From assembly GCF_004115975.1 (NCBI RefSeq), contig NZ_SDDZ01000006.1:62001-126000 (forward strand): DNA of 64,000 nucleotides. Reading direction: 5' to 3'. Below, one piece after another: positions 26,644 to 56,028 of the stretch; the first letter of the stretch is position 1; every line of letters begins with the position of its first letter. Source of the stretch: Gelidibacter gilvus (lineage in GTDB: Bacteria > Bacteroidota > Bacteroidia > Flavobacteriales > Flavobacteriaceae). The position numbers and the translations under genes are program-made. Below the pieces are notes generated by a model. That model made no database searches. It was not told where the DNA came from and was given only the letters and a program-made list of their open reading frames with translations.

Positions 26644-26687
26644 GTGATGTTTGTCATCATGAATGATATAAAATCAGATTATCTTTA
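26644..26687 (+). promoter_or_regulatory. Crp/Fnr-type site and -7 box upstream of the kinase/regulator operon
   Basis: The palindrome GTGATGTTTGTCAT (26644-26657, centre 26650.5) is followed by TATCTTTA at 26680-26687, with the T of TA exactly 29.5 bp from the centre. This places the site near -41.5 for a start around 26692, 121 bp before the kinase ATG. It is the least conserved of ten such sites, yet its -7 box equals that of the ytxH promoter. It suggests autoregulation. Confidence 0.65.
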
Positions 26688-26812
26688 TGCAATAGGCCAA
26701 TAGTCATCGTTTAGGCGAGAAACCTATTAAATTATAGGACATAGTATACTCAAGCACTTATAAAATCTGAAGAAATGATAAAACCAACTTCCTATTTCTT
26801 AACTATTTGTAG

Positions 26813-28390
26813 ATGAAAAACAAAATCCAGAATAAAGTTTTGTTTCAGAATATTTTTGAAGCATCAGGTGAAGGGATTATTGCTGTTGATGAAGATGGCG
26901 ATATTTTAACCTCAAATCCGGCATGCGAACAACTTTTTGGTTATAATCCTGGCGAATTGAATGATCAAAATATTGATATTCTCATTCCAGAAAAATATAA
27001 GCATCTTTATAAAAATTATATTAAAAAAAGAGGTCCAGGCCTTAAAAGAGAAAGACACCTCTGGGGCATTAAAAAAGATGGCAGTACATTTTATTTAAAC
27101 CTCCGCATTAGTCCTGCAATAATCGATGGAGAAGATATCACGATCGCCTTTTTTTGGGATGCCACACAAGAAAAAGAATACGCGCAAGAATTGGAACAGA
27201 AGGTACAAGAGCGCACTCAGGAAGTCATGGAAACAGTCCAGAAACTTTCAGAATCCAACATACGCCTTGAAGATCAAATACGAATTACCAATTTGGCTGA
27301 AGGCGAAGCGGTAACGAGTAAAAACATAGCCTCGGAAATTGCAAAAAATTTCCCGAATGGTTTTGTGGCAGTCATGGATGAACAGGCAAAAATAATATTT
27401 GCTGATGGAGACGCTTTAGAGCAATTGGGATTAAAACCTTTTTATCAAGAAGGCAGATCCATTGACGATATTTCTGTTTTTTCCGATGAACGAAAATCAC
27501 AAATCAAAGAAAGCATTAGAAAAACGCTTTCAGGAACACATCTTTCTTTTGAAGTCACCTATAAAGACAGATATTTCGCTGTAAACACCGCACCACTGAC
27601 GGACAAAAACAATAAAATAAGTAGTTCCCTGCACGTTTATAATGATATTTCCAAACAAAAGGAAATTGAGTTTACCATTCAAAACGCGTTAAAATCAGAA
27701 CAGGAATTAAATGATATGAAATCCCGTTTTGTGTCTCTCGCATCCCACGAGTTTAGAACACCTTTGAGTGCGATCCTCACTTCGGCAATTTTAATTGGCA
27801 AACAAAACGGCGATGGCAAAACCGAGAAAAGAGAAAAATACTTGGCTCGAATAGAAAGAAATGTCAAAAATTTGACGATTATCCTCAACGACTTCCTCTC
27901 CTTAAGCAAAATGGATGAAGGCGCGGTAATGCCCATTAATAAAAAGTTTGATTTGATTTCCTATTCTAAAAAATTGGTCAAGGAGACCAATATCACTTTA
28001 AAGAAGAACCAGACCATAAACGTATCAAGCGAAAATAAAGAACTGTTTGTGCATCTTGACGTGAAATTATTAAACCACATCCTTAATAACATATTATCGA
28101 ATGCGTCCAAATATTCATCCGAAGGTTCCCAAATCGATTTTAATATATCAGAAAAAAATAAAACCGTTTTGTTGGAAATTTCCGATCAAGGGATAGGTAT
28201 TCCGCAGGATGAACAAAAATACTTGTTCGGGCGTTTTTTTAGGGCAAAAAATGCCTTCAATATTGAAGGCACCGGACTGGGATTAAATATTGCAAAACAT
28301 TATACAGAATTAATGGGCGGCACCATAACATTTAATAGTGAACCAAATAACGGCACAACCTTTTCGGTTGAGCTTCCAATACAGAAATAA
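26813..28390 (+). CDS. PAS domain sensor histidine kinase
   Basis: A 525-residue soluble kinase with no membrane helix. Domains: PAS (about 10-125), coiled coil (128-170), second PAS-like region (about 175-285), HisKA with phospho-acceptor H312 in A-S-H-E-F-R-T-P, and HATPase_c with N, G1 (D-Q-G-I-G-I-P) and G2 (G-T-G-L-G-L) boxes. The first PAS resembles FixL-type PAS in its I-L-I-P-E-K-Y and K-K-D-G-S-T-F segments, but I see no His at the FixL haem-ligand position, so haem binding is doubtful. It ends 2 bp before the response regulator gene, making a cognate pair. A Crp/Fnr-type palindrome sits 156 bp upstream. Confidence 0.93.
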   Translation: MKNKIQNKVLFQNIFEASGEGIIAVDEDGDILTSNPACEQLFGYNPGELNDQNIDILIPEKYKHLYKNYIKKRGPGLKRERHLWGIKKDGSTFYLNLRISPAIIDGEDITIAFFWDATQEKEYAQELEQKVQERTQEVMETVQKLSESNIRLEDQIRITNLAEGEAVTSKNIASEIAKNFPNGFVAVMDEQAKIIFADGDALEQLGLKPFYQEGRSIDDISVFSDERKSQIKESIRKTLSGTHLSFEVTYKDRYFAVNTAPLTDKNNKISSSLHVYNDISKQKEIEFTIQNALKSEQELNDMKSRFVSLASHEFRTPLSAILTSAILIGKQNGDGKTEKREKYLARIERNVKNLTIILNDFLSLSKMDEGAVMPINKKFDLISYSKKLVKETNITLKKNQTINVSSENKELFVHLDVKLLNHILNNILSNASKYSSEGSQIDFNISEKNKTVLLEISDQGIGIPQDEQKYLFGRFFRAKNAFNIEGTGLGLNIAKHYTELMGGTITFNSEPNNGTTFSVELPIQK

Positions 28391-28392
28391 AA

Positions 28393-29463
28393 ATGAAAAA
28401 AATACTCATTATTGAAGACAATCAAGATGTTCGTGAAAATACAGCAGATATTTTAGAACTCGAAGGTTATGAGGTCGCTTCCGCAGAAAATGGAATAATA
28501 GGGGTTGAACGTGCAAAAGAACTCTTGCCAGATGTCATTGTCTGTGATATTATGATGCCAGAACTGGATGGCTACGGTGTACTTGAAGAATTGAACAAAA
28601 ACGCCCAAACATCGAGCATTCCCTTTATTTTCCTGACGGCAAAAACCGAGAAAATAGATATGCGAAAAGGCATGAATCTGGGTGCCGATGATTATTTGAC
28701 CAAACCCTTTACTGAAACGGAATTATTGGAAGCTATTGAAGGCAGGTTAAAAAGACATGATTTCTTAAGAAGAGAATTTTCAAGGTCAATAGAAGGCGTT
28801 TCACAATTTATTGAAGCAGCTTCATCCTATTTGGAATTAGATCATTTGTCTAGAGATTATAATCCGGTAAATTACACTACCAAAGATCTTATCTATATGG
28901 AAGGTGATGCGGCAAACACTTTATACTTCATAGAAAGTGGGGTAATAAAGACGTTTAAAACCACCGAAAAGGGCAAGGAATTCGTAACCGGTTTGTGCGG
29001 TCCTGGCCACTTTATAGGGCAATTATCCCTACTTTCAGACAACGGCACTTATATTGAATCGGCTGCGGTATTGGAAAATGCTGTACTTTATGAAATTCCT
29101 AAATTAGACTTTACCTCACTTATAAAAGAAAACAACGTTGTTGCCAATAAATTCATGAGCTTACTTTCCAATAATTTGGTAGATGTTCAAGAACTCATGG
29201 TCAACGTCGCCTATGCCACCGTGAGACAACGCGCGGCAAAAGCATTACTTGACATACATGACCAACGTATTTTAATCAATGATGACGATAATGGCATCAG
29301 TATAGGAAGGGAAGATTTTGCAGGCCTTATTGGCACGGCAACGGAAACGGCCATTCGCATGCTGACCCGATTTAGTGAGGAAGGCCTGATATCCTTTGGT
29401 GTGAGAAGAGAGATCATTATAAAAGAGAAAAAGACCTTAGAACATATTGTGATGTTCGGTTAA
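28393..29463 (+). CDS. Response regulator with Crp/Fnr-type output domain
   Basis: A 356-residue protein: receiver domain (residues 1-120, phospho-acceptor D52 in V-C-D-I-M-M-P), cyclic-nucleotide-binding-fold domain (about 150-265) and a winged helix-turn-helix of Crp type (about 270-345). The recognition helix contains E-T-A-I-R, keeping the Glu and Arg that in Crp and Fnr read the TGA of the half-site. That agrees with the TGAY-N4-RTCA palindromes found upstream of eleven units nearby, which have the same 6-bp gap between GA and TC as Crp and Fnr sites. It is phosphorylated presumably by the kinase encoded 2 bp upstream. Whether the cNMP fold binds a ligand is unclear. Confidence 0.92.
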   Translation: MKKILIIEDNQDVRENTADILELEGYEVASAENGIIGVERAKELLPDVIVCDIMMPELDGYGVLEELNKNAQTSSIPFIFLTAKTEKIDMRKGMNLGADDYLTKPFTETELLEAIEGRLKRHDFLRREFSRSIEGVSQFIEAASSYLELDHLSRDYNPVNYTTKDLIYMEGDAANTLYFIESGVIKTFKTTEKGKEFVTGLCGPGHFIGQLSLLSDNGTYIESAAVLENAVLYEIPKLDFTSLIKENNVVANKFMSLLSNNLVDVQELMVNVAYATVRQRAAKALLDIHDQRILINDDDNGISIGREDFAGLIGTATETAIRMLTRFSEEGLISFGVRREIIIKEKKTLEHIVMFG

Positions 29464-29470
29464 GGTCTTT
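29430..29470 (+). terminator. Terminator overlapping the regulator stop codon
   Basis: Arms AAAGACCTTA and TAAGGTCTTT form a 10-bp stem, and a T-rich tail follows. The stop codon TAA (29461-29463) lies inside the 3' arm, so translation and termination are physically linked. Confidence 0.75.
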
Positions 29471-29520: not shown

Positions 29521-29703
29521 GCGAATGGCATCCTTGGCGTCTTTTACAAATTCTGACACGTTCTGGGACGTATCTGTAACTGATCTTTTAATTTTCCTTC
29601 TTGTTTTACTGCCCTTATATGGCGCAAAAAGAATTCCAAGTCCAGCACCAATTGTGGCACCTGTTAAAAGAGCGAGCATTAATTTTCCATTACATCTTTC
29701 CAT
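29521..29703 (-). CDS. YtxH domain small membrane protein
   Basis: The protein (about 61 residues) has one membrane helix (L-M-L-A-L-L-T-G-A-T-I-G-A-G-L-G-I-L-F-A-P) followed by a basic G-S-K-T-R-R-K-I-K helix, which is the YtxH layout. The in-frame ATG at 29703 (MERCNG) fits the family; an upstream TTG start at 29739 lies inside the predicted promoter and is rejected. Family members are general-stress proteins of unknown function. The promoter has the best Crp/Fnr-type palindrome of the window, with a leader of about 31 nt. Confidence 0.8.
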
Positions 29704-29738: not shown

Positions 29739-29782
29739 TAAAGATAAGATAAATGCCCTTGATATAAAATGACCTAGGTCAT
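29739..29782 (-). promoter_or_regulatory. Crp/Fnr-type site and -7 box of the ytxH-like gene
   Basis: The perfect 14-bp palindrome ATGACCTAGGTCAT (29769-29782, centre 29775.5) precedes, on the minus strand, the box TATCTTTA (29746-29739). The T of TA is 29.5 bp from the centre, so the site is near -41.5 and transcription would start about 31 nt before the ATG. Confidence 0.85.
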
Positions 29783-29996: not shown

Positions 29997-32900
29997 CTAA
30001 ATTAAAACATGCACCTCAACCTCATGTTGTCTTCCGTTATTCTCTAAAGGAAAGACAGCGCCCTTACCCTTCTCATTGTCCATCTTCCACCACGATTCTT
30101 CAATATCCTTTTCCTGATAGATTGTGATATTATAAGTACTGGTTTTAAAACGGTAATTAATGGTAACAGAAGGCCACTCCTCAGGAAAACAAGGGGTGAA
30201 TTTCAGTTTGTCCACAAGAAGTTCCATGCCCAACAACGAACTTATAATAAATTGATTCATCCAGCCTGAAGAGCCAGTGTACCACGTCCATCCGCCACGC
30301 CCACGATGGGTTTCGTTAGCGTAAACATCGGCCGCCATGACATATGGCTCTACTTTATAGGTCTGCACCTCCTCAGCATTCAAAGCATGATTAATGGGTT
30401 GGACCATACTAAATAGTTCGTAGGCAGTCTTCCGATCGCCAAGCGCAGCAAAGGCCATTAAGGTCCAGATGGCGGCATGGGAATATTGGCCTCCATTTTC
30501 TCTTACTCCAGGCACATAGCCTTTGATATAACCGGGATTCAAATCCGATTTATCAAAAGGCGGATCAAGCAGCTGAATGATTTTTATATCCCTTCTGACC
30601 AAATGTTTATTTAAAGACGCCATGGCTTGATTTCTTCTTTCCTCAGGTGCCGCATTGGTCAGAACAGACCAACTTTGGGAAATGGCATCAATGCTACATT
30701 CATCGTTTATCTTCGATCCCAGAGGCGTTCCATCATCAAACCAGGCCCGTTTATACCAGTTGCCGTCCCAAGCCGATTTTTCAATATTCGCTTGCAATTC
30801 AATGGCCTCTTCTTTACAGGTTGCCGCAAATTCGTGATCGCCATATTGAAGGGCTACTTTTTCAAAATTTAAAAGAATATCATATAGGAAAAATGCGAGC
30901 CAGACACTTTCTCCCTTACCTTCATTTCCTACCTGGTCCATCCCATCATTCCAGTCGCCAGATCCCATCAACGGCAATCCATGTGCTCCAAAACGGAGAC
31001 TGTGTTCTATGGCGAGACGACAATGGTGGTACAGATCAACACTTGAACTGCCACGCGTTGGCAAATCATAGAGGGTATCTTCACCTGCCTGCAACGTCCT
31101 GGTGTTTATAAATCTGGATTGCGCTTTCAATATCTCCATATCGCCAGTAGCATTTAAATACCTATAAAGCACAAATGGCAACCATAATAAGTCATCAGAA
31201 CAATTGGTACGCACCCCCCTACCTTCTGGTGGATGCCACCAATGCTGTACATCGCCTTCCTTAAACTGACGGGAAGCATTTAGAAGTATTTGCTCTCTGG
31301 CCAATTCAGGTTTGTTGTGCAATAAGGACAGCACATCCTGAATCTGATCCCTAAAACCAAACGCACCTCCAGATTGATAAAATCCACTGCGGGCAAATAA
31401 TCTAGAAGCAATGGTTTGATAAGTAAGCCATCCATTGGCCAGCAGATTTAAAGCCTCATCCGGCGTCTGAACCTGCACCGTCGTGACGATTTCATTCCAA
31501 TAAGCCTTAACCTCATTAAAAGACTGGTTAACGGTAGTCAAGTCTGAAAAATCTTGGGTGAGCTTAATGGCCGCTTCCGTATTTTCACCATTGCCAATTA
31601 CAAAAACAAGTTCTCTTTCTTCTCCTGACAGCAATTCAAATTTACCTTGCAACCCTGCGCAAGTGTCATGTCCGGCACCAATTCTTCCTCTTAAATCTTG
31701 GTGGTGCATCGCCTTAGGATTGGAAAGACTTCTGTTCCGTCCAATAAATTTCGATCGATCCGTGGTATAACTATAAGTATTTAGACCAATAATTTTGAAA
31801 AATGCCACACGATTGGCAAATGCATCATTGTACCTGTTTCTAAAGAATAAGGCCCTGTTACTCGTATCGTGTTCTGAAAGGATATGCATATTGGTTTTAG
31901 AGCGGACATTGCCTAAAATAATTTCTAAATATCCAGTAACCGATAGTTTTCGAGAGCGCTCTGAATTATTTTTTAAGCGCAGTACGACAAACTTAACCGG
32001 TGCCTCCTTGTCCACAAACACTGTCATTTTGGAAACTATGCCGTTTTCTATATGCTCAAAATTGCTATAACCAAAACCATGCGTCGTGATATAATTTGCT
32101 TCACTTTTTATCGGAAACGGTGCTGGTGACCAAAACACTCCACTTTCTTCATCCCGTAAATAAAAGGCTTCCCCACTGCCATCCATCACGGGATCATTTT
32201 GCCAGGGCGTCATGCGATATTCATGTGCATTTACTGCCCAGGTGTAGGCTGACCCACTTTCAGAAACCACAGTTCCCATAGTCGTATTTGCAATGACATT
32301 CACCCAAGGCGCTGGGGTGATGACTTCATTATCAGTTATGATTTTATATTCTTTCCCGTCAGGCGTAAAACCGCCTGTTCCATTAAAGTATTTAAGATCT
32401 GACGGCAGCACTAAATTTTCAAGGCTTGTGTCTTTGGGAGCTTTCGCGGTAATTTCCAATAATGGAGATGATCCTATTTCTGTGTAAAGTCCAGCTATCT
32501 GCTCTGATAAGGTGCCATTATTATCGGTGATAATTATTTTGGCAACACTTTCAAATAAGATGCGATCCTCCACAGAAATTTGATCGGTTGATTTTACATA
32601 TATCTTTCCGGGAACATGGCCAGTTAAGGTGTTCACTGCGGAAATCATGTTTAAGATCTGATCCTGTAATTCATGGCGGTAAGTGCCATGATCCTCATTC
32701 CAGATGACAAGATCTACGGTCAGTCCCTTTAATTGCCAATACCCGTGAGCCTTGACTATTTGCGTAACCAAATCAAGGTTTTTCATATCAAATATCTGCA
32801 ACAATACAATCGGCAAATCTCCCGAAACCGAATGGCTCCAAAGTCCCGACTGACCTCTGAAATTACTCTTGATTACTGCCTCAGAACCTCGTAAGGCAGG

Positions 32901-35900
32901 ATTTGAATAAATTATTGATGATGCCAGTTTTCCGAATATTTGGGCATCGGCTTCCGTGGCATCAATCTGCCTTAACAAAACCTGGCTATGGGTCCAGGAA
33001 AGATCCAACGCACGTTTTTTAAGATTCTTATCGCGATATTTATGCATGAGCGCTTCACTTTCTTGACGACTTTCACAAATGCCATAGATAAGGTCAATAG
33101 TAGCCGTGCTGTAAGGCTCAATGGTTATACGACACTTTGTAGACATTACAGGATCCAGAACGGCACCTTGGTTACCCGCTAATTTACCAACATCAATGGC
33201 CTGCGGATCAGCTAAGGTTCTTCCTCTGCCAATAAATTGCATGCGGTCAGTTTCAAAGGAAACCTCTTCCACTTTTCCACCGTAGGCATCCATTAAATGA
33301 AAGAAATGGGGTGGCATTTCATTTTTGGACCGGGGTCTTCTTGTACCAAAAATCGCATTGTATTCTGGCTGTATCTCGGTTTGGACAAACAGGTTGCTGA
33401 ATGCGGGATGTGCCTCATCAGAGGCTTGGGTGGCTAGGACAAGCTCAGTATAACTGGTGATCTCCAGAACTTTAGGCGCCTGCGATCTATTTGTAATCCT
33501 AATTTTTCTTATTTCTACGTTATCTTCAGGAGATACCACAATTTGGGTTTTGGTCTCAAATCCAAAATCTCTTCTGTAAAACTCAATGGAGCCCTGAGAG
33601 AATATCGCCTCATAATTTTTAGAAGGCTGAAGGGTTGGATGGTAAGTATTGGACCAGAAGTTTCCACTATCGACATCTTTTATATAACAAAAGATTCCAT
33701 AATTATCTTTTATGGCATCCTCTCGCCATCTGGTGACGGCTACATCTTTCCAACGGCTGTATCCGCCTCCTGAATTGGTGACCATGACCTGATAATTCCC
33801 ATTACTGAGTAATTGCAATTCTGGGATGGTCGTATTTGGCGTGGTTATAATTCTTAATTGTGCTTCTGCCCCTGTAGTGTGTATATCCGCAACTTTAGCG
33901 GTATGTGCGTAAAAAATAGATTTCTTTGGAATGCGCTCCTGCAAAAGCAATAAGGCCGCTTGAAAACGTAACTCTGCAGCAAAACGATCTTGCATAGGTT
34001 TGTTTAGCAACACATAGGCAAACGATAAGAATCCCATCCCTTGGTGATGGGCCATAAACGAATTGATGACCACATGATCTTCACCACGTGGCAGTCGTGA
34101 TTTGGTATAATCAATAGCCTCAAAAAATCCATATTCTCCTTCAAAACCTTTCTCGTATAAAACTTTTAAATTAGAGGCTGCTTTTTTGGGAGCAACCATT
34201 AAAGCCAACATGCTCGCGTAAGGCGCGATGACAAGATCATCCTCCAACCCTCGTTTTAATCCCAATCCGGGCACACCAAAAGCTTGGTATTGATAATTAA
34301 GACTGGTATCGACGTTGTTGTAGCCCGATTCGGAAATGCCCCAAGGTACATCACGCTTTTTAGCATATTCTATCTGCCGTTTTACCATGGCAATATTGGT
34401 GGCATGCAATAAGGTGTTTTCATAAGTGGGCATGACCAATTGCGGCATCAAATATTCAAACATTGAACCACTCCAGGATAATAGGACCGGTCCGTTTTTT
34501 GAATCGGTAAGCAACCGCCCCAAGGAAAACCAACTTTCCTGAGGCAACATGCCTTGTGCAATCCCCACAAAAATGCCCATCCTTGCTTCTGAAGCGAGCA
34601 TATCATAAAAGCTATCATCCCTTCTGAGTTCATCCACATTATAGCCAATCGAAAGATGGCTCCTGTCCTTATCCAACAAAAACTCATAATCAACAATACT
34701 CAATTGTTCAAGCTTTTCCGCTAGTTCTTCAAAATAGCTAAGTTTTTCAGGAATCGCAGCATTTGCGGATTTTAAAGCGGTTTCTAAATTCATCAGCCAT
34801 TTCCTATCCGATTCATCATTTGTTTCCTTTTTGTAGAGGTCAATCTGCTGACTCAGTTCTCCATTCATGTCATAAAGGGAAAAAAGCGACTGATTCACAT
34901 CTAATTGGGACAAACCATTAAATGATTCTGGAATGGGCAATAACTTCAACCATGGAACCTGAAGGTAAAGATCTTCTCGATTGTTTGTAATTTGATTTTT
35001 TAACTTCTGTATCCATTTCCCGGTCTCTGACGTTTCATCAGATGAGCTAATTTCCGTGCTAAACTCTAAAAGATCATCTAAATTCCTTTTAATATCTAAC
35101 AACGAATTGTTTTTATCACGAATGACAGGAACCAGAAAATTTTCGATTTTATCTATAGTTTCGTCCTTTTCCTCTTTCAACAAATCTTTTATGATCCCTA
35201 CCGTAGCGTTAAGACCAGTATAACTTTCCATATTGAAAATCAGATCGGATTTACAGGCCAAAATGCCTTGTCGCAAAATAAGTAGATGGCTTACCAAATT
35301 CCCACTATCTACTGTAGATACATAGGCCGGTCTCATGATCGCTAAGGAACGTGTTTCATACCAATTGTAAAAATGGCCTTTATAGCGTTCCATTTTATAT
35401 AAAGTTTCGATGGTATTGCTGCATCTCAAAACCATTTCCGTCATGGTAATATATCCAAAATCGTAGGCGGTAAGGTTCGACAGTAACGAAAGCCCTATAT
35501 TGGTAGGTGAGGTTCGGTGGGCAATTATCGGATTTGGATGTTGTTGGAAATTATCAGGTGGAAGCCAATTATCTCCTTCAGTCACAAACTGTTCAAAAAA
35601 ACTCCAGGTCTTTCTTGCCGATTTATGAAGAAACACCTTTTGGCTCTTGCTAAGATTGGGAACTTCTTCTTTTTCCGTTTGACTTAATCGCCATGCAATG
35701 GAAGGGGAAACAAACCATAGGATAAGAATAGGAATGGAAACAAAAAAGGCGGGTGAGTTTGAGCTCAGAAATAGGATAAGACATAGAGATGCCAATATAG
35801 GGCCTATCCACATCTTTCTATAAATGAACAAAATACTATCTTTTGATTGACGGGAAGCGGTGGCAGATGGGGTCCATTCCAATAGCTTTCTACCGGTGCC

Positions 35901-41385: not shown

Positions 41386-41429
41386 TCAATTTAAAACTTT
41401 AATTCAAATTTTCCAATGACTAAGATCAG
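41386..41429 (-). promoter_or_regulatory. Crp/Fnr-type site and -7 box of rtcB
   Basis: ATGACTAAGATCAG (41416-41429, centre 41422.5), with TAAATTGA at 41393-41386 on the minus strand; the T of TA is 29.5 bp from the centre. Predicted leader about 38 nt. The box is a weak match to TAnnTTTG, as at the 45.2-kb site. Confidence 0.7.
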
Positions 41430-45214: not shown

Positions 45215-45258
45215 CTGACCCAGATCATTGTTAACGTCCTAAATATCAAGTATATTGA
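45215..45258 (+). promoter_or_regulatory. Crp/Fnr-type site and -7 box of a small secreted protein gene
   Basis: CTGACCCAGATCAT (45215-45228, centre 45221.5) and TATATTGA (45251-45258), with the T of TA again 29.5 bp away. Predicted leader about 136 nt to the GTG at 45399. Confidence 0.7.
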
Positions 45259-47062: not shown

Positions 47063-48593
47063 GATTCTGGAGTTCAGGAAGGTTGGCAATTGCATCCTTT
47101 GCCAATGATACGATAGTAGCTTCATCGGCCTCGTTCAAAGACTCTGAAGCAAAGATGCGTCGCAACAGGGCATCAGGTATTTGGGACGATTTCTTTTTAA
47201 TCAGGTTTTCAGCGGTCGTGATTTTATCAAGAGGTACACTGTCAAAAATACCATGGATCAGCGCCATCAACACCAAGAGTTGCTCTGGTACCGAAACAGG
47301 TTCCATTTCAGGTTGTTTAAAAATCATCCGAATTCTTTTTCCTCGCTCAATCATTTTTTGGGTATCGGCATCCAAACGGGTTCCAAAACGCGAAAACGTT
47401 TCCAATTCTTCAGATTGGGCATAGGCAAGTTTCAAATTCCCAGCAATTTTCCGATAGGCTCCCAACTGTGCCTTACCGCCTACCCGAGACACCGATTTTC
47501 CGATATCTACTGCTGGAAGCAAACCCAATTCGAACAATTTTGGCGAGAGATAAATCTGACCATCAGTAATTGAAATAATGTTTGTGGGGATATAGGCCGA
47601 GATATCCTGAGCTTGCGTTTCAATAATGGGCAAAGCCGTCAAAGATCCGCCACCATTGGATGCATTAAGATGGGTTGATCGTTCCAGAAGTCTGGAATGG
47701 ATATAAAAAATATCGCCGGGAAATGCTTCCCTTCCAGGTGGTCGACGCAGTAAAAGTGACAATTCGCGATACGCACGCGCATGCTTGGTCAGATCGTCAT
47801 AAACAATTAAAACATCACGTCCCTGCTCCATAAAATATTCTGCAATACTTGTAGCCGCATAAGGTGTTAAATATTGAAGTCCAGGCGAACTGTTTCCTTC
47901 AGAAAATACGACCACGGTATAATCCATGGCGCCTTTCTCCTGAAGTTCAGAAATCACTGTGGCAACCGCTGCAGTACGTTGCCCAATAGCACAGTAGATA
48001 CACAACACATTTTTATCGTGCTGATTGAGAATGGTATCAATGGCAATAGAGGTTTTGCCCGTTTGTCGATCTCCAAGGATCAATTCACGTTGTCCACGTC
48101 CAATAGGAATGATCGCATCAATGACTTTAATTCCGGTTTGTAAAGGCGCATTGACGGCTTCGCGACTCATAATAGGTGGCGCAGGCCGTTCAATAGGATA
48201 GCGGTGTTGAAATGAAATGGGACCTTTATCGTCCATCGGATTTCCGAGTGAATCGACGACCCTCCCGATAAGACCTTCGCCCACAGGAATATCGGCAACC
48301 CGATGGGTTCTTAAAACAGGATCACCTGCTTGGAGCTGATCGTTTCTGCCCAAAAGCACCACGCCTATTTCATCTTCATCGAGATTAAAAGCCATGCCGT
48401 ATAAATTGTTGGGAAACTCCAATAGTTCCTCAAAACCTGTTCCCGGTAAACCAGTTACAGTGGCAATTCCCGCAGAAATATTTTTTACAATCCCCATTTC
48501 ACGAAATTGAATCGTGGGATCATAGTTTTGCTTACTGTCGCTTATCTCCAGAAAGGTATCCTCTAATATTTGGTCTAAATCAGTCGATCGCAT
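47055..48593 (-). CDS. atpA: N-type ATPase alpha subunit
   Basis: A 512-residue alpha subunit. Walker A G-D-R-Q-T-G-K-T-S near residue 172, non-catalytic-site pattern, and V-V-F-S-E-G-N-S-S-P-G-L-Q-Y-L where classical alpha has A-T-A-S-E. It is slightly longer at the N-terminus than the beta subunit, as usual. It overlaps atpF by 14 bp. Classical F-type operons have delta directly before alpha; here no delta gene is present, in line with N-ATPase organisation. Confidence 0.94.
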   Translation of the reverse strand: MRSTDLDQILEDTFLEISDSKQNYDPTIQFREMGIVKNISAGIATVTGLPGTGFEELLEFPNNLYGMAFNLDEDEIGVVLLGRNDQLQAGDPVLRTHRVADIPVGEGLIGRVVDSLGNPMDDKGPISFQHRYPIERPAPPIMSREAVNAPLQTGIKVIDAIIPIGRGQRELILGDRQTGKTSIAIDTILNQHDKNVLCIYCAIGQRTAAVATVISELQEKGAMDYTVVVFSEGNSSPGLQYLTPYAATSIAEYFMEQGRDVLIVYDDLTKHARAYRELSLLLRRPPGREAFPGDIFYIHSRLLERSTHLNASNGGGSLTALPIIETQAQDISAYIPTNIISITDGQIYLSPKLFELGLLPAVDIGKSVSRVGGKAQLGAYRKIAGNLKLAYAQSEELETFSRFGTRLDADTQKMIERGKRIRMIFKQPEMEPVSVPEQLLVLMALIHGIFDSVPLDKITTAENLIKKKSSQIPDALLRRIFASESLNEADEATIVSLAKDAIANLPELQNHE

Positions 48594-49350
48594 TTTCTTT
48601 CTCCTTTGTGATGATACTCTCCTTTTTTAAGGCTTCGAGATAGGAATCAATAGTCCATGACAATTGGTAACTTGCCGTCTCTATCTTAATGCCACTCACC
48701 AATTCCGGTTCCAATTCATATCGAAAATCATTCTGTTTTTCGGTGATTTTTTCCATTGCTTTTTCGAGTTCCTGTTTCGAACTATCCGATAAATAGAACA
48801 CACTTTTTATGGTAATGGAACCTTCGTTATCTTTGAGTGCGTCCATAAATTTTGTTTTAGCCGCCCCATCCAAATTCCTTATTTTCTCAATAAATACAGT
48901 CACCACTTGTTGCTCCAGACTGACATCCGCAAGATCAGAAAGCGTTTTTCTTGCAATTTCAAAAACGGCATCCTTGGTTTTTCTCTTAAGCCGATCAACT
49001 ATTTCTTGTTCTTGCTGCTTGAGCGACTCCTCGAATTTTGAACGCAGCACCGTAGATTCCTTTCTCACCTCTTCCAATAGACGTTGCTTTTCAGAATCAA
49101 TCTGTTCGTGGACTTTATTCATTTTTGCGACACGTTCTTTATCAAAAGCTTCATTCTTTTGACGGAACAGATCTTGATCTTTCTTGGCTTCTGCTTTTTT
49201 TGTGGCAGCGTCCTCAAGTTGAGCAGCAATCTTATTTTCCCTCGCATCAATAGCATCCAATACCGGTTTGTATAAAAACCGTTTTAAGAGCCAGACTAAA
49301 ATGAGAAAATTGACTATTTGTGCTATTACTGTAAACCAGTTGATTTCCAT
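48580..49350 (-). CDS. atpF: N-type ATPase b subunit with C-terminal delta-like extension
   Basis: A 256-residue protein, about 100 longer than a classical b subunit. Residues 1-28 hold the single membrane helix, residues 30-140 a long charged coiled coil, and residues about 150-250 a globular tail (S-D-L-A-D-V-S, S-V-F-Y-L-S-D) that matches the delta/OSCP-like position. The N-ATPase operon has no separate delta gene, so this fused tail likely links stator to alpha. It lies 7 bp downstream of atpE. Confidence 0.9.
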   Translation of the reverse strand: MEINWFTVIAQIVNFLILVWLLKRFLYKPVLDAIDARENKIAAQLEDAATKKAEAKKDQDLFRQKNEAFDKERVAKMNKVHEQIDSEKQRLLEEVRKESTVLRSKFEESLKQQEQEIVDRLKRKTKDAVFEIARKTLSDLADVSLEQQVVTVFIEKIRNLDGAAKTKFMDALKDNEGSITIKSVFYLSDSSKQELEKAMEKITEKQNDFRYELEPELVSGIKIETASYQLSWTIDSYLEALKKESIITKEKENAID

Positions 49351-49357
49351 AAAATGA

Positions 49358-49624
49358 TTATGCTATAAAATGATTCCAAAACGGATTCGCAAAAATGAGG
49401 ATCATCGAAAGCACAAAACAATAAATAGCTGTCGATTCAATCATTGCCAAACCCACAAATAATGTTCTGGTAATTGTTGGTGCGGCATCGGGTTGTTGCG
49501 CGATAGATTCCAATGCTTTTGCAACCGCTCTTCCCTCTCCTAATGCAGGCATCATACTGCCAATTCCTGTTGTAATTCCTGCAGTGATAATTGATGCCAC
49601 TGCGATAATTGTTACGTTGTCCAT
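49358..49624 (-). CDS. atpE: N-type ATPase c subunit (rotor ring)
   Basis: An 88-residue hairpin of two membrane helices. The loop is A-Q-Q-P-D. Ion-site residues: E63-S-T-A-I-Y68 in helix 2, identical in pattern to Na-binding c subunits, and E30 in helix 1 at the position of the Na ligand Gln32 of Ilyobacter. Two carboxylates per subunit are known from the N-type ring of Burkholderia pseudomallei, which was reported to bind protons. Whether this one uses Na or H cannot be told from sequence. Confidence 0.93.
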   Translation of the reverse strand: MDNVTIIAVASIITAGITTGIGSMMPALGEGRAVAKALESIAQQPDAAPTITRTLFVGLAMIESTAIYCFVLSMILIFANPFWNHFIA

Positions 49625-49812
49625 GTTTAAAAATTTTGTTTCTTGTTTAAAGTTTCTCGTTTAACGTTTCTTGTTTGTTGTTTATCCGTGGCCCAACTTC
49701 GCTTTCATCTTCAAATTCAATTTCAATTTTGTTCTGGTTAAAGTTCAAAGTTTTTGTGACTCATAGTTAGAAAAACACTTTCTCTACCCTCTCCCACTTC
49801 TCACCACTCACA
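49625..49812 (-). promoter_or_regulatory. Long A/T-rich spacer with repeats before atpE
   Basis: This 188-bp gap is the only large spacer inside the operon; other junctions are under 10 bp or overlap. On the coding strand it contains repeated AGAAAC and TTTAAAC or GTTAAAC units just upstream of atpE. By analogy with the E. coli atpE translational enhancer, it may raise c subunit synthesis or mark a processing or internal start site. Inference only. Confidence 0.35.
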
Positions 49813-50502
49813 CTAATCCCCACTCCCCTCTATCTCCTTCTCCTCCTGCGTAGCCGCCGCAATATACACCGTTGCCAAAATCGCAAAGATATAAGCCTGT
49901 ATCATTCCCGTCAACAAGCCTAATGCGCTCATGATCATCGGAAAGAAAAAAGGCACTATAGAAATTAAAACTGTAGCGATCAAACCGCCACTCATGATGT
50001 TTCCAAACAATCTGACCGCCAATGCCAGCGTTCGCGAAATCTCACTGATGATATTGAACGGGAGCATAATAAAATTCGGCTGTAAATAAGAACGTAAGTA
50101 CCCTTTGAGTCCGCCACCGGCAATTCCAAAAACGGGAACCGCAATAAATACGGATATCGCCAGTGCCGCTGTGGTAGAAAGTGAACCCGTTGGCGCCTCA
50201 TACCACGGCACTATGGTCAACAGATTTGAAACGGCAATAAAAAGAAATAAAGTGCCGATAAAGCCGATGTATTTTTCAGGTTTTTTCAATCCCACTTCTT
50301 TTATTTGATCGCGGATCATAATGACCAACATCTCCAAAACATTCTGCCAGCGGGAGGTCTTAATTTCCGATTTTAAATTTCGGGTGATCAGCCACGCACC
50401 TAGACCTAGCAGAAGCATCAATGCCCATGTGGTAACGATAGTGAGGTTGATATTAATAAACCCGTACTCCCAAAAAATCATTTGATCCGGACTAATTCTC
50501 AT
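49813..50502 (-). CDS. atpB: N-type ATPase a subunit
   Basis: A 229-residue membrane protein with about five or six helices. The essential Arg is in S-R-T-L-A-L-A-V-R-L-F-G-N (helix 4 equivalent), followed by the final helix with G-M-I-Q-A-Y-I-F-A-I-L-A-T-V-Y-I. It is shorter than F-type a subunits (about 240-270), as usual for N-ATPases. It overlaps atpR by 11 bp. Confidence 0.92.
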   Translation of the reverse strand: MRISPDQMIFWEYGFININLTIVTTWALMLLLGLGAWLITRNLKSEIKTSRWQNVLEMLVIMIRDQIKEVGLKKPEKYIGFIGTLFLFIAVSNLLTIVPWYEAPTGSLSTTAALAISVFIAVPVFGIAGGGLKGYLRSYLQPNFIMLPFNIISEISRTLALAVRLFGNIMSGGLIATVLISIVPFFFPMIMSALGLLTGMIQAYIFAILATVYIAAATQEEKEIEGSGD

Positions 50503-50812
50503 CGCTTACTTCTTTTATGAATACTGGATTTGCCTGCTTGAGTTTTTTTGTGATGTTTGTAATCACAATTCTAGCTATTAAAAAGCCCACGAGACAGGCC
50601 AGCAGTTTTTGCCAACTATCCCCGCCCACAAAATAAAATCCGGTCAAGATAATCGCCATTCTTAATATCAAACTACCGAAAAATATCAGGGTCGCCCTTT
50701 TTGAGCCCAATCCTTTATTCACGGTGAGCCAAAGTCCCCCGAAAAATATAACCCCCAATAACATCCCAGCCAATACCGCTGGAAGTAGGCTTAATATGTC
50801 ATTCATTTCCAT
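50492..50812 (-). CDS. atpR: N-type ATPase AtpR subunit
   Basis: About 104-106 residues with three hydrophobic segments: L-L-P-A-V-L-A-G-M-L-L-G-V-I-F-F-G-G-L-W, a middle pair and a C-terminal segment ending in basic residues. AtpR is a marker of the N-ATPase operon. ATG at 50812 (MEMNDIL) or 50806 (MNDIL) overlaps the end of atpQ (stop at 50799) by 14 or 8 bp; an upstream start at 50866 would add an unrelated basic tail and is rejected. Confidence 0.85.
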   Translation of the reverse strand: MEMNDILSLLPAVLAGMLLGVIFFGGLWLTVNKGLGSKRATLIFFGSLILRMAIILTGFYFVGGDSWQKLLACLVGFLIARIVITNITKKLKQANPVFIKEVSDEN

Positions 50813-51122
50813 CTTCGTTTTTTTTATGAATTTCCTTATTTTCTTTTTGAATCCAATTCCACGCAATCAAACATCCCAACATCAATCCCGCAACCAAGAG
50901 ACTGAGGGTCCAAGAGAAATCTTCTTTGGAGGTTTTATCGAGCCAAATTCCCAAGGCTGCACCCAAAATTGTGGGCACTGCAATAGACCAACCGATCATT
51001 CCAAACAAACCCAATCCGGACCATACGCTTTTAGTTTCGCGTTGTGCCTGAAGTTTTCGTTCTTCCTTGTCGCCGACTACTTTCTCAAAAGAGCTGTTCT
51101 TATTTGATTTTTCCTCTTTCAC
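50799..51122 (-). CDS. atpQ: N-type ATPase AtpQ subunit (AtpI-like)
   Basis: A 107-residue protein: a charged N-terminal 40 residues, then two helices (M-I-G-W-S-I-A-V-P-T-I-L-G-A-A-L-G-I-W-L-D and S-W-T-L-S-L-L-V-A-G-L-M-L-G-C-L-I-A-W). AtpQ/AtpI-type proteins help c ring assembly. Position between epsilon and AtpR is that of the N-ATPase. It begins 2 bp after the atpC stop and overlaps atpR. Confidence 0.85.
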   Translation of the reverse strand: MKEEKSNKNSSFEKVVGDKEERKLQAQRETKSVWSGLGLFGMIGWSIAVPTILGAALGIWLDKTSKEDFSWTLSLLVAGLMLGCLIAWNWIQKENKEIHKKNEDGNE

Positions 51123-51124
51123 AA

Positions 51125-51526
51125 TTATCTTCTCAAGTTTTGAAAATTACGTAAAAAGCCAGTTTCTAATTTTGCCATCACATTACGGGCATTTATTTCC
51201 AGTTCATCCAGTTCTACCATTTCTTTTTCAACCATAGCCCTCAACTTTCCGAGAGGCGCATTTCCAATGGCATGCCTCACGGATATGGACACCTGTGCTC
51301 CTGCTTTTATCAAAATACCATCATTCACGGCAATATATTTTTCTCCTTCATCTTCTGTTTCATAAACTAAAATCCCCGTCACCAACGCGGCTGTGCAATC
51401 AAGTCTGCGAGGTAAAATGCCATAAGAGCCATCGGTAGTTTCCGCCACAATCCGTTTCACGTTTTTTATATCCGCAAAAACGCCATAGGGCAGTAGAATC
51501 TTAAGTTGCATTAAATTAGTTTCCAT
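51125..51526 (-). CDS. atpC: N-type ATPase epsilon subunit
   Basis: A 133-residue epsilon: an N-terminal beta-sandwich (G-S-Y-G-I-L-P-R-R-L-D-C-T-A-A-L) and a C-terminal helical hairpin (L-R-A-M-V-E-K-E-M-V-E-L-D-E-L-E). It follows atpD after 3 bp. The order beta-epsilon at the operon start, ahead of the membrane subunits, is the signature N-ATPase arrangement. Confidence 0.9.
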   Translation of the reverse strand: METNLMQLKILLPYGVFADIKNVKRIVAETTDGSYGILPRRLDCTAALVTGILVYETEDEGEKYIAVNDGILIKAGAQVSISVRHAIGNAPLGKLRAMVEKEMVELDELEINARNVMAKLETGFLRNFQNLRR

Positions 51527-51529
51527 TAT

Positions 51530-52981
<1,452 letters not shown>

Positions 52982-53056: not shown

Positions 53057-53130
53057 TAAATATATCGAACTTTAAATCCGCATGAAATGACCTATATCAT
53101 GTCATACCATTTCGTCAAGGTTTAATTTTG
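53057..53130. promoter_or_regulatory. Bidirectional Crp/Fnr-type promoter of the N-ATPase operon and mscS
   Basis: One palindrome ATGACCTATATCAT (53087-53100, centre 53093.5). Toward atpD, TATATTTA (53064-53057); toward mscS, TAATTTTG (53123-53130, full match). In both directions the T of TA is 29.5 bp from the centre, so one bound activator could serve both. Predicted leaders about 113 and 130 nt. Confidence 0.85.
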
Positions 53131-53264: not shown

Positions 53265-54371
53265 ATGAACAAATTTTTAGAAACCTATCAATCAGATATA
53301 ATTTACGCCACAATTGTTATAGCATCCGTGGTGTTGCTTTATTTCTTAACCCGAATTCTCAGGGTCTGGTTCACTAATAAAATCCAAGAAAAACTTCCGG
53401 GAGCATCGGTCCGGCCAATAAATCTGATTAAACATATCTTAACAGTACTCTGGATTCTTCTGGGCATAACAGCACTTGCTTTTATCTTTATTGAGGTAGA
53501 TAGGGAATTTGTTTTAAGACGCTATTTTAAGCTGTTTATTTATATAGGTGTGGTTTCTGTGGTGACCATTATCGCCTTAATGATCAGCAATTTATGGTTC
53601 AAGTATAAAATTCAGCAAAAAATTGAAGAAAAGGAAGACCCTACCAATTACAAGTTTTTCCGTTATGTAGTGATCATTCTTATTGGGCTTATTGGCGCTT
53701 TAATTTCGTCATTGGCTTTTCCGTCGCTAAAAGGTGTAGCGCAGACTACTTTAGGTGGCGCGGGGATTATAGCGTTGATTGTAGGTTTTGCGGCACAAGA
53801 AGGTTTAGCCAACATCACAGGAGGATTTTTTATTATCGCATTTAAACCCTTCAGAATTGGTGATCGGGTCAAGATTTCTGATACCATGGTGGGTACGGTA
53901 ACGGATGTTACGCTGCGTCATACGGTAATTAGAAATTTTGACAATAAAATGATTGTAATTCCCAATTCAATCATCAATAAAGAAAAACTAATCAATTACG
54001 ATTTAGGTGAACATACCTTATGTGAACACATAGAAATAGGGATTTCTTATGATAGTAATATCGATTTGGCAAAAAAAATTATGCGGGAAGAATGCGAGAA
54101 TCACCCTTTAATTTTTGACACCCGTTCCGAATTTGAAATCGAAGAAGGCAAACCCCTGGTGAGAACAGCGCTGACTGAATTAAATGATTTTTCAATGACT
54201 ATTAGAGCGTGGGCATGGGTGCGCAACCATTCGGATTCATTTTCATTAAAATGTGATGTTTTAGAAAGTATCAAGAAACGCTTCGACAAAGAAGGTGTTG
54301 AAATTCCTTATCCGTACCGCACGATCGTCATGAAAGAAATAAAGGAAAAACCCGCTGAACGTTTAGAATAA
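53265..54371 (+). CDS. MscS family mechanosensitive channel
   Basis: A 368-residue channel with about four or five N-terminal membrane helices; the pore helix G-G-A-G-I-I-A-L-I-V-G-F-A-A-Q-E-G-L-A-N near residues 170-190; the beta domain (F-K-P-F-R-I-G-D-R-V-K-I) and a cytosolic C-terminal domain. It releases osmolytes on hypo-osmotic shock. It is read from the right-hand side of the shared promoter with the N-ATPase operon. A repeat element occupies part of its leader. Confidence 0.95.
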   Translation: MNKFLETYQSDIIYATIVIASVVLLYFLTRILRVWFTNKIQEKLPGASVRPINLIKHILTVLWILLGITALAFIFIEVDREFVLRRYFKLFIYIGVVSVVTIIALMISNLWFKYKIQQKIEEKEDPTNYKFFRYVVIILIGLIGALISSLAFPSLKGVAQTTLGGAGIIALIVGFAAQEGLANITGGFFIIAFKPFRIGDRVKISDTMVGTVTDVTLRHTVIRNFDNKMIVIPNSIINKEKLINYDLGEHTLCEHIEIGISYDSNIDLAKKIMREECENHPLIFDTRSEFEIEEGKPLVRTALTELNDFSMTIRAWAWVRNHSDSFSLKCDVLESIKKRFDKEGVEIPYPYRTIVMKEIKEKPAERLE

Positions 54372-54473: not shown

Positions 54474-54860
54474 CTATAAGTTGTTCTCCAAAAATCTAAA
54501 CACATCTTTTTTGAGCTCAGCGTAAATTTCTCTTTGGGTTTCCATTCGGTTTCTAAAAGCTTTATGTTTTTTGACCAATTCTGTGTCTTTTTTCAGCTTT
54601 CCTGCGTCACTTTGTGCCATTATAAACACTTCTTGCTGTTCGAGAGCTTCAAGTAAATCCTCTATCACACCGCCATGAAAAATAAACTGTTTCTGGTAAT
54701 CTCCTATCCGATCAAGTACTTCTTTATCTCCCCAACGTGTGATAAATTCACTTAATTTGATGTTGAAAGATTTTAATTCCTCCTTCCAAAAGGCAATTTC
54801 GCCTTTCCATTGTTGGTGTTCAAACTCTCTATTCGAATTATATAAAACTGGTTTTTCCAT
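54474..54860 (-). CDS. Conserved-looking coiled-coil protein, 128 residues
   Basis: This all-helical, highly charged cytosolic protein (starts MEKPVLYN) has three long helices with heptad-like spacing, including E-I-A-F-W-K-E-E-L-K and T-Q-R-E-I-Y-A-E-L-K-K. ATG 54860 is preferred over the upstream start at 54926. I do not recognise the family. Its promoter contains the only perfect TAnnTTTG box (TATCTTTG) on the minus strand with the palindrome at the fixed distance, which supports real expression within the regulon. Confidence 0.7.
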   Translation of the reverse strand: MEKPVLYNSNREFEHQQWKGEIAFWKEELKSFNIKLSEFITRWGDKEVLDRIGDYQKQFIFHGGVIEDLLEALEQQEVFIMAQSDAGKLKKDTELVKKHKAFRNRMETQREIYAELKKDVFRFLENNL

Positions 54861-55312
54861 GTTGCGATTATTTAAAAATGACTGTTCAAAGCTTCTGTCC
54901 AACAGTGATATCTTAAATTCGCCCAAATGACTTTGGGATAATTTTTAAAATCGATTCTTTGATAGGTCAATATTTTGAGGCTGATTGGATTTTAAAAGTT
55001 TATGCGTTAAGCGTGTGATTTAAAATCATCATCTACTACTATTTCAAAGATATCTGAAATTGCAATGGTTCGAAATGACCCAGGTCACTCACAATTTAAA
55101 CCTAAGATATTTTCGATACCTATTCATTTTTGCATTCTCCATTCATTGAGCGAACTGATCACTTTTATTTTATGTAGTTTATCAGCTTGAAGTTTTTTAT
55201 AGTTAGGATAGCTGATATCAACCGTCCGCAAACTTTCATGATTTGCAAAAATCATCCGTTAGTGACGTGTTTTGTGGGATTTGAATGGGAAGTTGGTATT
55301 GATAGCTTCAAT
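54861..55312. other. Intergenic region, 452 bp
   Basis: It holds the promoter at 55045-55088 for the coiled-coil protein and, further right, the 3' flank of the ArsC-like gene. No other gene or repeat seen. Confidence 0.5.
55045..55088 (-). promoter_or_regulatory. Crp/Fnr-type site and -7 box of the coiled-coil protein gene
   Basis: ATGACCCAGGTCAC (55075-55088, centre 55081.5) with TATCTTTG at 55052-55045 on the minus strand; the T of TA is 29.5 bp away. On the plus strand no TA lies at the mirror position. Predicted leader about 180 nt. Confidence 0.85.
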
Positions 55313-55699
55313 TTATAGCTTCATGATATCGGTAGGTGTTTCCACTAAAATAGTTTTACTGCCGCGTAAAGCAATCGGCTGTTTCATAATTTCTGGATGG
55401 TTTTGAATCATGGTGATCCAGTCTTCACAAGAGAAATTCTGAACAATAAACTTATTTCTGTATTTATAATGTTCCTGATTGACCAAATCTTCAACTTCAA
55501 TACCTAAACGATTTACCAATTCTGCAATTTGAGTTCCGGTTAAAGAGCATTTTAAAACATCAATTTCTTCTATAGGAAGACCATGCGTCTTGGCATAAGC
55601 CAACGTCTGTTTTCCTCTTTGAGATTTGGGATTATAATACAGGGTAATTTGTCTTTCTGATGTGGATATCACACCTTTACTTGCTATAGATCTATTCAT
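55313..55699 (-). CDS. ArsC/Spx-like protein lacking the catalytic cysteine
   Basis: A 128-residue thioredoxin-fold protein of arsenate reductase (ArsC/Spx) type: Y-Y-N-P-K-S-Q-R-G-K-Q-T and an R-x-P-I-type segment (M-K-Q-P-I-A-L-R-G). The usual Cys in N-P-x-C-S-x-S-R is Ser here (S26), so arsenate reduction is unlikely. Two other Cys (in L-K-C-S-L and F-S-C-E-D) remain. A Spx-like regulatory or adaptor role is possible. It is preceded by a Crp/Fnr-type promoter, with a leader of about 99 nt. Confidence 0.8.
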   Translation of the reverse strand: MNRSIASKGVISTSERQITLYYNPKSQRGKQTLAYAKTHGLPIEEIDVLKCSLTGTQIAELVNRLGIEVEDLVNQEHYKYRNKFIVQNFSCEDWITMIQNHPEIMKQPIALRGSKTILVETPTDIMKL

Positions 55700-55802
55700 A
55701 TTTTATTTATTTAGTAATTAAAAATTCTTTTAAAAGAATCTGGATTCATTTTATTTTTTGGGATTTTATAATCTTTCATTAAAATTATTTTTTATCCACT
55801 TA

Positions 55803-55846
55803 CCAACATACAACTGTATTTCTTGAATTGAAATGATCAGGGTCAG
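55803..55846 (-). promoter_or_regulatory. Crp/Fnr-type site and -7 box of the ArsC-like gene
   Basis: ATGATCAGGGTCAG (55833-55846, centre 55839.5) with TATGTTGG at 55810-55803 on the minus strand; the T of TA is 29.5 bp away. The -7 box deviates in its last four bases. Confidence 0.7.
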
Positions 55847-55984
55847 TCCGCCGAAAAATCCATGGCATGCGATTTTTATCTTCTTTCTGTTTTGTGAACT
55901 GCAGATGGAGAAATTATTTGAGTTTTTACAAAGGACCTTAACCTGTTTAGTATAAGATCTCACTTTTAACCCATTATCGGTGGA

Positions 55985-56028
55985 CTGACCTACATCATTT
56001 GACACTAGAATTTTTTAAGGTATCTTGG
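55985..56028 (+). promoter_or_regulatory. Crp/Fnr-type site and -7 box of the baeRF gene
   Basis: CTGACCTACATCAT (55985-55998, centre 55991.5) with TATCTTGG (56021-56028); the T of TA is 29.5 bp away. Predicted leader about 56 nt. Confidence 0.8.

Follow-up and report, generated by a model that had tools for sequence, protein, structure and literature searches.

A receiver-fused Crp-type response regulator as the likely activator of a clustered set of stress-gene promoters in Gelidibacter gilvus

For a stretch of 64,000 nucleotides of Gelidibacter gilvus (RefSeq assembly GCF_004115975.1, contig NZ_SDDZ01000006.1, positions 62,001 to 126,000, hereafter the window; C40:62001-126000 of genome G000, 4.63 Mb), we found twelve promoters packed in 30 kb that combine a palindrome of the Crp/Fnr type with a promoter box at one fixed distance. 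The cluster starts with the operon of a histidine kinase and of a response regulator in which a receiver domain is joined to a Crp-type DNA-binding module (REC-Crp). We consider it probable that this two-component REC-Crp protein activates these class II promoters as those of a survival regulon. A first-pass annotation of the DNA had proposed ten palindromes and eleven promoters; all ten of its 14-mers were found in place, and its counts were each one short, because the palindrome at 38932-38943 faces the gene at 29997-38804. Eleven palindromes of the form TGAY-N4-RTCA therefore serve 12 promoters, the one at 53088 feeding two divergent ones. The gene names already given (histidine kinase, REC+cNMP+HTH_Crp, RtcB, Usp for universal stress protein, MS_channel, ATP-synt_ab, baeRF, Dodecin, YtxH) were confirmed by Pfam, with a weak match for ArsC. 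The promoters and their genes are as follows (aa, amino acids).

26645..26687, + strand: promoter of the kinase-regulator operon, TGATGTTTGTCA, box TATCTTTA; centre atypical
26813..28390, + strand: PAS-PAS histidine kinase, 525 aa (Pfam)
28393..29463, + strand: REC-cNMP-HTH_Crp response regulator, 356 aa, the proposed activator (Pfam, alignments)
29739..29781, - strand: YtxH gene promoter, TGACCTAGGTCA, box TATCTTTA
29521..29703, - strand: YtxH-like protein, 61 aa (Pfam)
38901..38943, - strand: GH94 gene promoter, absent from the first-pass annotation, TGACCGGCATCA (minus strand, palindrome 38932-38943), box TACTTTTG (6/6)
29997..38804, - strand: 2935-aa protein with GH94 and Glycoamylase domains (Pfam), presumably cyclic beta-glucan synthase-like
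38965..39007, + strand: dodecin gene promoter, TGACCTGGGTCA, box TACTTTTG
39037..39243, + strand: dodecin, 68 aa (Pfam)
41386..41428, - strand: rtcB promoter, TGATCTTAGTCA, box TAAATTGA (4/6)
40183..41343, - strand: RtcB RNA ligase family (Pfam)
44075..44117, + strand: Usp gene promoter, TGATCTATGTCA, box TAAATTTG
44143..45003, + strand: universal stress protein, 286 aa (Pfam)
45216..45258, + strand: promoter of a 100-aa gene, TGACCCAGATCA, box TATATTGA (4/6)
45399..45701, + strand: 100-aa protein, no Pfam family
53057..53099, - strand: ATPase operon promoter, TGATATAGGTCA, box TATATTTA; palindrome in common with the MscS promoter
46181..52969, - strand: rotary ATPase operon, Pfam matches in three genes (51530-52969, 47055-48593 and 46181-47125; ATP-synt_ab twice, ATP-synt once); presumably an N-ATPase, a label that comes from the first-pass annotation
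53088..53130, + strand: promoter of the MscS-type channel gene, TGACCTATATCA, box TAATTTTG
53265..54371, + strand: MscS-family channel, 368 aa (Pfam)
55045..55087, - strand: promoter of a 150-aa gene, TGACCTGGGTCA, box TATCTTTG
54474..54926, - strand: 150-aa protein, no Pfam family
55803..55845, - strand: ArsC-like gene promoter, TGACCCTGATCA, box TATGTTGG
55313..55699, - strand: ArsC-like protein, 128 aa (weak Pfam match)
55986..56028, + strand: baeRF gene promoter, TGACCTACATCA, box TATCTTGG
56089..57246, + strand: baeRF-family protein, 385 aa (Pfam)

The window contains 16 exact matches to the palindrome TGAYNNNNRTCA, compared with 5.56 (standard deviation 2.44) in 100 shuffles, the highest of which reached 12. 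Twelve of the 16 are intergenic and four lie inside open reading frames. For 11 of the 12 intergenic palindromes a box that begins with TA stands exactly 23 bp away on a gene-facing side, and the remaining one, 57263, which lies between convergent genes, has no TA-starting box at that distance. In all 12 promoters the TA is found exactly 23 bp downstream of the palindrome, or 29.5 bp from its centre, as the first-pass annotation had claimed for its eleven. When both orientations of the 16 palindromes were scored (32 in all) and a box was defined as TA plus at least 4/6 positions of TAnnTTTG, spacing 23 held 12 boxes, with a mean of 0.85 and a maximum of 3 for the other 74 spacings (5-79). The corresponding Poisson value of 1.4e-10 serves as a guide only, since the box threshold was chosen after the data had been seen. 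A palindrome inside a reading frame at 13123, with GACTTTTG at the box spacing, was excluded for having no initial TA. The -7 boxes of the 12 promoters match 4-6 of the 6 positions, and TTT directly 3' of the palindrome is frequent (100, 83 and 75% per base), at approximately the place of the -33 element; TAnnTTTG at -7 and TTTG at -33 are the consensus of Bacteroidota promoters of the sigma-ABfr type as given in the accessible part of PMC2483708. The two-fold palindrome with its GA-N6-TC core, as for the Crp/Fnr superfamily, and the fixed spacing support the reading of these elements as Crp/Fnr-type sites with class II-like geometry. A chance origin was rejected on the shuffles, the reversed-pattern controls and the spacing comparisons.

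The same geometry extends well beyond the window. The whole-genome scan suggested by the first-pass annotation, for the palindrome followed after 23 bp by TAnnTTTG, gave 17 matches and none for the reversed pattern; with spacers of 10-38 allowed there were 35 matches (10 reversed), 17 of them at 23 and 18 spread across the 28 remaining spacings. A 442-kb set from the same genome, formed by the window and stretches L027-L046, several of which were taken because of genome-wide pattern matches, has 28 relaxed boxes at spacing 23, with a mean of 3.0 and a maximum of 9 for the other 54 spacings. Across 60 genomes of the family, a pattern ending in TAnnTTTR was present in 58, with 873 matches in total versus 28 reversed. 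The 25 genomes with REC-Crp, its presence being judged from matches that span most of the query, average 22.9 matches and the other 35 average 8.6 (p 1.1e-6, uncorrected for kinship and completeness); seven named REC-Crp relatives have 12 to 58 each, with 0 to 2 in reversed controls. Genomes in which REC-Crp was not detected can be rich in the geometry too, as seen in G048 (29 matches, 82% complete), G033 (23) and G017 (22; both near-complete). Moreover, an FNR-like 40-kb set in G. gilvus itself (L027-L028, G000 C38:54001-94000), with hemN, nitrite-reductase-like, cytochrome c and ccoN genes named by eye, shows the 23 spacing with AT-rich centres, and an FNR-like gene, C38:91849 (239-aa open frame), sits in the cbb3 region. 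In five genomes free of REC-Crp (G059, G044, G017, G012 and G058) sites with the 23 spacing face hemN, ccoN, cytochrome, phosphotransacetylase-like, TonB-like, CBS and other genes (by eye). The 23-bp geometry is therefore general to Crp/Fnr-type promoters in the family and not private to the window regulator, and geometry alone was rejected as proof of one regulon. Here the first-pass annotation, for which the fixed geometry by itself defined the regulon, does not stand; its own test, whether the spacing occurs before unrelated genes, went partly against it, and only site flavour, gene content and clustering separate the sets.

The centre of the site separates the window set from the FNR-like set. 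C at position 5 or G at position 8 is present in 11/12 window promoters and in 63/92 promoters near clade-A-like REC-Crp genes elsewhere, compared with 7/32 in six genomes carrying only the other REC-Crp type (clade B), 0/5 among the FNR-type promoters of G. gilvus and 1/44 in the five REC-Crp-free genomes. Clade A comprises proteins that are 53% or more identical to the one in the window, a grouping by identity and not by tree; a palindrome at L028:17359 before a copper-ATPase-like gene was not counted among the five FNR-type promoters, since GACCTTTG, which stands at the box distance, has no initial TA. When both bases were required (TGAYC..GRTCA-N23-TAnnTT), six clade-A genomes gave 8, 6, 4, 3, 2 and 0 matches and the other 54 gave 26, with none in 42 of them (p 1.2e-4, uncorrected for kinship) and 3 reversed-control matches in all 60; a same-genus genome without clade A had no match. 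TGACC-type sites on another contig of G. gilvus (L031:10339, that is G000 C16:25339, and C16:41365), one of them before a short-chain dehydrogenase gene, are possible outlying members. The difference in site centres and the enrichment in clade-A genomes argue against the alternative, in our view quite unlikely, that the FNR-like protein of C38:91849 and not REC-Crp activates the window genes, these being one part of a large FNR-type regulon; so do the crowding of the promoters from the kinase-REC-Crp operon onward and a tandem form of the site, described below, that tracks REC-Crp across 148 genomes. This alternative draws on the common geometry at hemN, nitrite-reductase-like, cytochrome c and ccoN genes, on the abundance of sites in genomes free of REC-Crp, where two Usp promoters carry FNR-type sites (by eye), and on recognition helices that are nearly identical (TATESAIR in the FNR-like protein, TATETAIR in REC-Crp), so that the FNR-like protein could bind some window sites.

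As for REC-Crp itself, the product of 28393-29463 has both the phospho-acceptor and the adjoining kinase of a response regulator. Its receiver (PF00072, 9.1e-30) holds D52 and K104, invariant in 6 aligned sequences, and is joined to a cNMP-type beta-roll and a Crp helix-turn-helix (HTH) of the Crp/Fnr superfamily (PF00027 4.6e-19, PF13545 1.8e-11, PF00325 5.9e-6). The N-terminus is a receiver without a cysteine cluster, so the Fe-S hallmark of FNR proper is missing. In an alignment with CRP, whose recognition-helix Glu and Arg read GA, the helix keeps the equivalents of Glu181 and Arg185, and Arg180 is replaced by Thr, a loss that fits TGA sites without the outer G of CRP sites. Of the residues that contact cAMP in CRP, Glu72 is here a Gln (GEL to GQL) and the equivalents of Arg82/Ser83 are absent; control by cAMP was rejected because these pocket residues are replaced. 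None of the best 60 of 282 PDB matches spans both halves of the regulator. A kinase gene lies directly upstream in 76/80 REC-Crp loci, among which L131 could not be read as an open reading frame and L132 and L153 come from records of other phyla and are perhaps misbinned. At a cut-off of E <= 1e-50, REC-Crp was found in 23 of 148 genomes of the phylum: in 23 of the 37 that are G. gilvus itself or belong to the same family, order or class, and in 0 of the 111 others. G. gilvus has a second kinase and REC-Crp pair (L029:5843-8772, G000 C38:220842-223771, REC-Crp at C38:222719), followed by two Usp genes with sites.

Further evidence comes from lineages in which the site is doubled. In L111-L176, the 66 REC-Crp loci that do not belong to the closest group, where at least 5/6 box positions were required, spacing 45 holds 48 boxes and spacing 23 holds 29. 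In the 48 promoters with spacing 45, found in 30 of the 66 loci, the palindrome tends to be followed by another one exactly 22 bp downstream: at this shift TGA is in place in 30/48 and TCA in 37/48 (21 have both, 25 have one and 2 have neither), and other shifts between 12 and 33 give 0-4. Examples are L122:11070, L114:8693 and L164:8714, all on the + strand. Such an arrangement would place dimers at -63.5 and -41.5. Over the 148 phylum genomes the tandem pattern gave 27 matches in 12 genomes and none in the reversed control; it is present in 10/23 genomes with REC-Crp versus 2/125 without (Fisher 6e-8, species kinship uncorrected), and in G091, G188, G165, G068 and G130 a tandem match and the REC-Crp match are no more than about 150 bp apart. 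The genes behind 46 listed tandem promoters include those of Usp, CcoN (nine), the kinase itself and an Hsp20-like protein (by eye). The tandem version thus tracks REC-Crp across the phylum, which can be taken as independent support for the link to this regulator, and it is from such co-occurrence that we infer DNA binding by REC-Crp. A remnant of the tandem site in the window was looked for and rejected, as a 12-mer 22 bp upstream with TGA/TCA in place occurs in 0/12 promoters.

In Gelidibacter maritimus, whose regulator is 88% identical to the window protein, 6/12 window promoter genes have a homologue in the 60 kb examined, and those for Usp, baeRF, RtcB and the ATPase retain the palindrome and the box with a 23-bp spacer that aligns without gaps. 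The homologue of the 150-aa gene also has a site, which rests on a scan, the alignment being gapped and poor. Before the kinase gene, the window and 4/5 clade-A relatives have a site at the 23-bp spacing, counted from reading-frame starts; this replaces an earlier count of 1/44 kinase homologues that used local-alignment starts. Within REC-Crp loci, single-spacing sites stand before 7/7 YtxH, 3/5 MscS and 1/1 RtcB homologues, in counts that mostly omit tandem promoters; for GH94, the 100-aa protein and baeRF no homologues were found in the first locus set, and baeRF was later found with its site in G. maritimus. The preference for spacing 23 recurs in 14 stretches from five clade-A relatives, some with clade-B copies as well (67 boxes versus about 4 per spacing), in L097-L110 (58 versus a mean of 6.4 and a maximum of 15, L107 repeating part of one genome) and in 13 further stretches, in part chosen for their matches and in part shared with loci already used (73 versus about 7, with a maximum of 14). 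In the relatives' clusters, sites also stand before genes for BON, PfkB, erythromycin-esterase and, by eye, Hsp20-like proteins. Such promoters are repeatedly followed by genes for small proteins whose N-terminal part, judged by eye, contains WK, as in window 54474-54926 and in L078, L082, L093 and L223. Site flavour, tandem form, the G. maritimus sites and the sites before kinase genes all point to REC-Crp at 28393, which the first-pass annotation had inferred to be the activator, as the likeliest one.

Several observations, in addition to the shared geometry and similar helices, weigh against this assignment. Six of the 12 window promoter genes have no homologue in the 60 kb of G. maritimus, where the four kept palindromes (9-11/12 bases) are only moderately more conserved than their flanks (29-30/45), and where the kinase-operon site was not found in an alignment that is gapped and poor. 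A site precedes 1/10 clade-B kinases, and a single or tandem-position site precedes 14/76 kinases in the named loci; given 4/5 in clade A versus 1/10 in clade B, self-activation seems likely in clade A and not general. Single-spacing sites stand before 25/61 Usp, 1/3 dodecin, 1/3 ATPase beta, 1/6 150-aa family and 0/3 ArsC-like homologues. The clade-A genome G054 has zero matches with C5 and G8, G025 (7), G007 (5) and G018 (4) have such matches without clade A, all three carrying other-type REC-Crp, and 2/12 tandem-bearing genomes have no REC-Crp at the cut-off. Another alternative is that several regulators have overlapping sites: REC-Crp would be the main activator, with co-regulation by the FNR-like protein or by the second REC-Crp (C38:222719), and the sets would blend. 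The common core TGAY..RTCA, the common spacing, the similar helices, the intermediate sites TGATGTTTGTCA of the kinase operon and TGATATAGGTCA of the ATPase and the 7/32 C5/G8 promoters of genomes with only clade B are all compatible with such blending, but the group averages of site centres clearly differ, and we consider this unlikely, if less so than control by the FNR-like protein instead of REC-Crp. REC-Crp remains, on the comparative evidence, the likely regulator of the window set.

Low oxygen or energy limitation may be the signal, a proposal to which we would give even chances. Low oxygen was considered because genes for a cbb3 oxidase are frequent in REC-Crp loci of other lineages and kinases resembling FixL occur in some of them: CcoN homologues occur within 10 kb in 24/80 REC-Crp loci (23 of them in L111-L176), and Usp homologues in 36/80. 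For the window kinase, the best PDB matches of the first PAS domain are the heme PAS domains of DosP and FixL, in which a His is the heme ligand; the window kinase has a Tyr at this column, and the low-oxygen or heme idea appears weakened for it. The heme-type His is present in the second G. gilvus kinase (L029:5843-7717), which also has a LOV-like domain (GKNCRFLQ), and is kept in all 10 clade-B kinases examined (by eye against the PDB alignment). LOV-type NCRFLQ segments occur in this second kinase, in one other clade-B kinase and in five other clade-A kinases (L083:5756-9031, L080:15648-17675, L086:3101-5857, L077:16863-19361 and L088:8120-10861), for which blue light is a possible input; in the two kinases searched, the PDB matches over this segment are LOV photoreceptors. 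By a crude motif count over 76 adjoining kinases, 16 are FixL-like, 3 are LOV and none is both, so that, with only 19 having either motif, we make no general claim about the sensor. Oxygen and light could thus be candidate inputs for parts of the family, and for the window kinase itself they stand as a proposal.

We hypothesise that low oxygen or energy stress is sensed by the PAS kinase, which would then phosphorylate the receiver of REC-Crp and so most likely favour a DNA-binding dimer. This dimer would bind palindromes resembling TGAYC-N2-GRTCA (consensus TGACCTAGGTCA), whose centres lie 29.5 bp upstream of the -7 box TAnnTTTG, at about -41.5 from the presumed start, and could there recruit RNA polymerase as a class II activator. 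The targets would be the genes for Usp, dodecin, YtxH, RtcB, baeRF, the rotary ATPase, MscS, the ArsC-like protein, the GH94 enzyme and two orphans; the kinase-regulator operon is probably a target as well. The place expected for the -33 element lies directly beside the site; REC-Crp might then be a repressor whose palindrome blocks the -33 region, or its phosphorylation might switch genes off. A repressor, however, would be expected to tolerate varied positions, and a class II spacing that stays the same from promoter to promoter suits an activator, as does the tandem form at -63.5/-41.5, so we regard repression as very improbable. Just before the kinase, window 23588-26425 holds a PLD-domain protein and a C5 cytosine methylase and resembles a restriction-modification system or its remnant.

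REC-Crp activation as proposed here can be compared with several known systems. The rhizobial FixL-FixJ-FixK cascade resembles it in the FixL-like PAS kinases of part of the REC-Crp family, in the phospho-receiver, the Crp/Fnr-type binder and the GA-N6-TC core, and in the ccoN genes near REC-Crp, nine of which have tandem sites before them (by eye). It differs in that REC-Crp joins receiver and Crp-type binder in one protein without a separate FixJ step, acts at Bacteroidota promoters and, in the window, faces stress genes and not respiration; moreover, the Tyr of the window kinase departs from a heme-PAS sensor. FNR/ANR systems share the TGAY-N4-RTCA site, the class II-like position and, in the sister set of G. 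gilvus, hemN and cbb3 targets, whereas REC-Crp has an N-terminal receiver and sites that are GC-rich at the centre. With E. coli CRP it has in common the cNMP domain and the Glu and Arg of the HTH recognition helix, and differs in the replaced cAMP residues, the change of Arg180 to Thr and the fused receiver. DevR (DosR) and OsdR are response regulators with a LuxR/NarL-type output and a different site, whereas the output of REC-Crp is HTH_Crp. The likeness lies in the many sites around the regulator's own gene and before Usp genes, an arrangement described for OsdR of Streptomyces and DevR of Mycobacterium in the part of PMC5069765 available, where an OsdR site is also placed at pyruvate phosphate dikinase. 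A comparable case is L222:2698-2805 of an uncultured Winogradskyella, in which a divergent pair of sites serves dodecin and pyruvate phosphate dikinase. The oxygen regulon of M. xanthus NmpRSTU holds Usp, cbb3 and hemN genes according to the accessible text of PMC11841059, and FixLJ-FixK2 is named in that of PMC6710368. By output domain or fusion, the REC-Crp system is a member of none of FixLJ-FixK, DevR/OsdR and NmpRSTU. The first-pass annotation knew of no described regulon of this composition in Bacteroidota, and we likewise found none for a REC-Crp-type regulator in the open-access literature, which is weak evidence of novelty.

More tentatively, and with somewhat less than even confidence, REC-Crp may be a widespread system of Bacteroidia in which FixL-FixJ-FixK is shortened to a kinase and one protein, controlling a DosR-like dormancy and microaerobic regulon. 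Its promoters would have evolved into two kinds, with one site at -41.5 in Flavobacteriaceae and with tandem dimers at a distance of 22 bp (-63.5/-41.5) in other lineages, and LOV-bearing kinases would perhaps read both oxygen and blue light. The baeRF proteins, linked to ribosome hibernation factors in what is available of PMC6514570, fit such a dormancy theme. Flavour, fixed spacing and tandem form would together amount to a readable regulatory code for a type of response regulator for which we found no regulon in print. To our knowledge, promoter-level regulation in these lineages is poorly mapped. The set predicts co-regulation of little-studied stress genes, namely those for baeRF, YtxH, dodecin, RtcB and two families without a Pfam name, and makes it testable how survival genes are controlled in marine Flavobacteriaceae.

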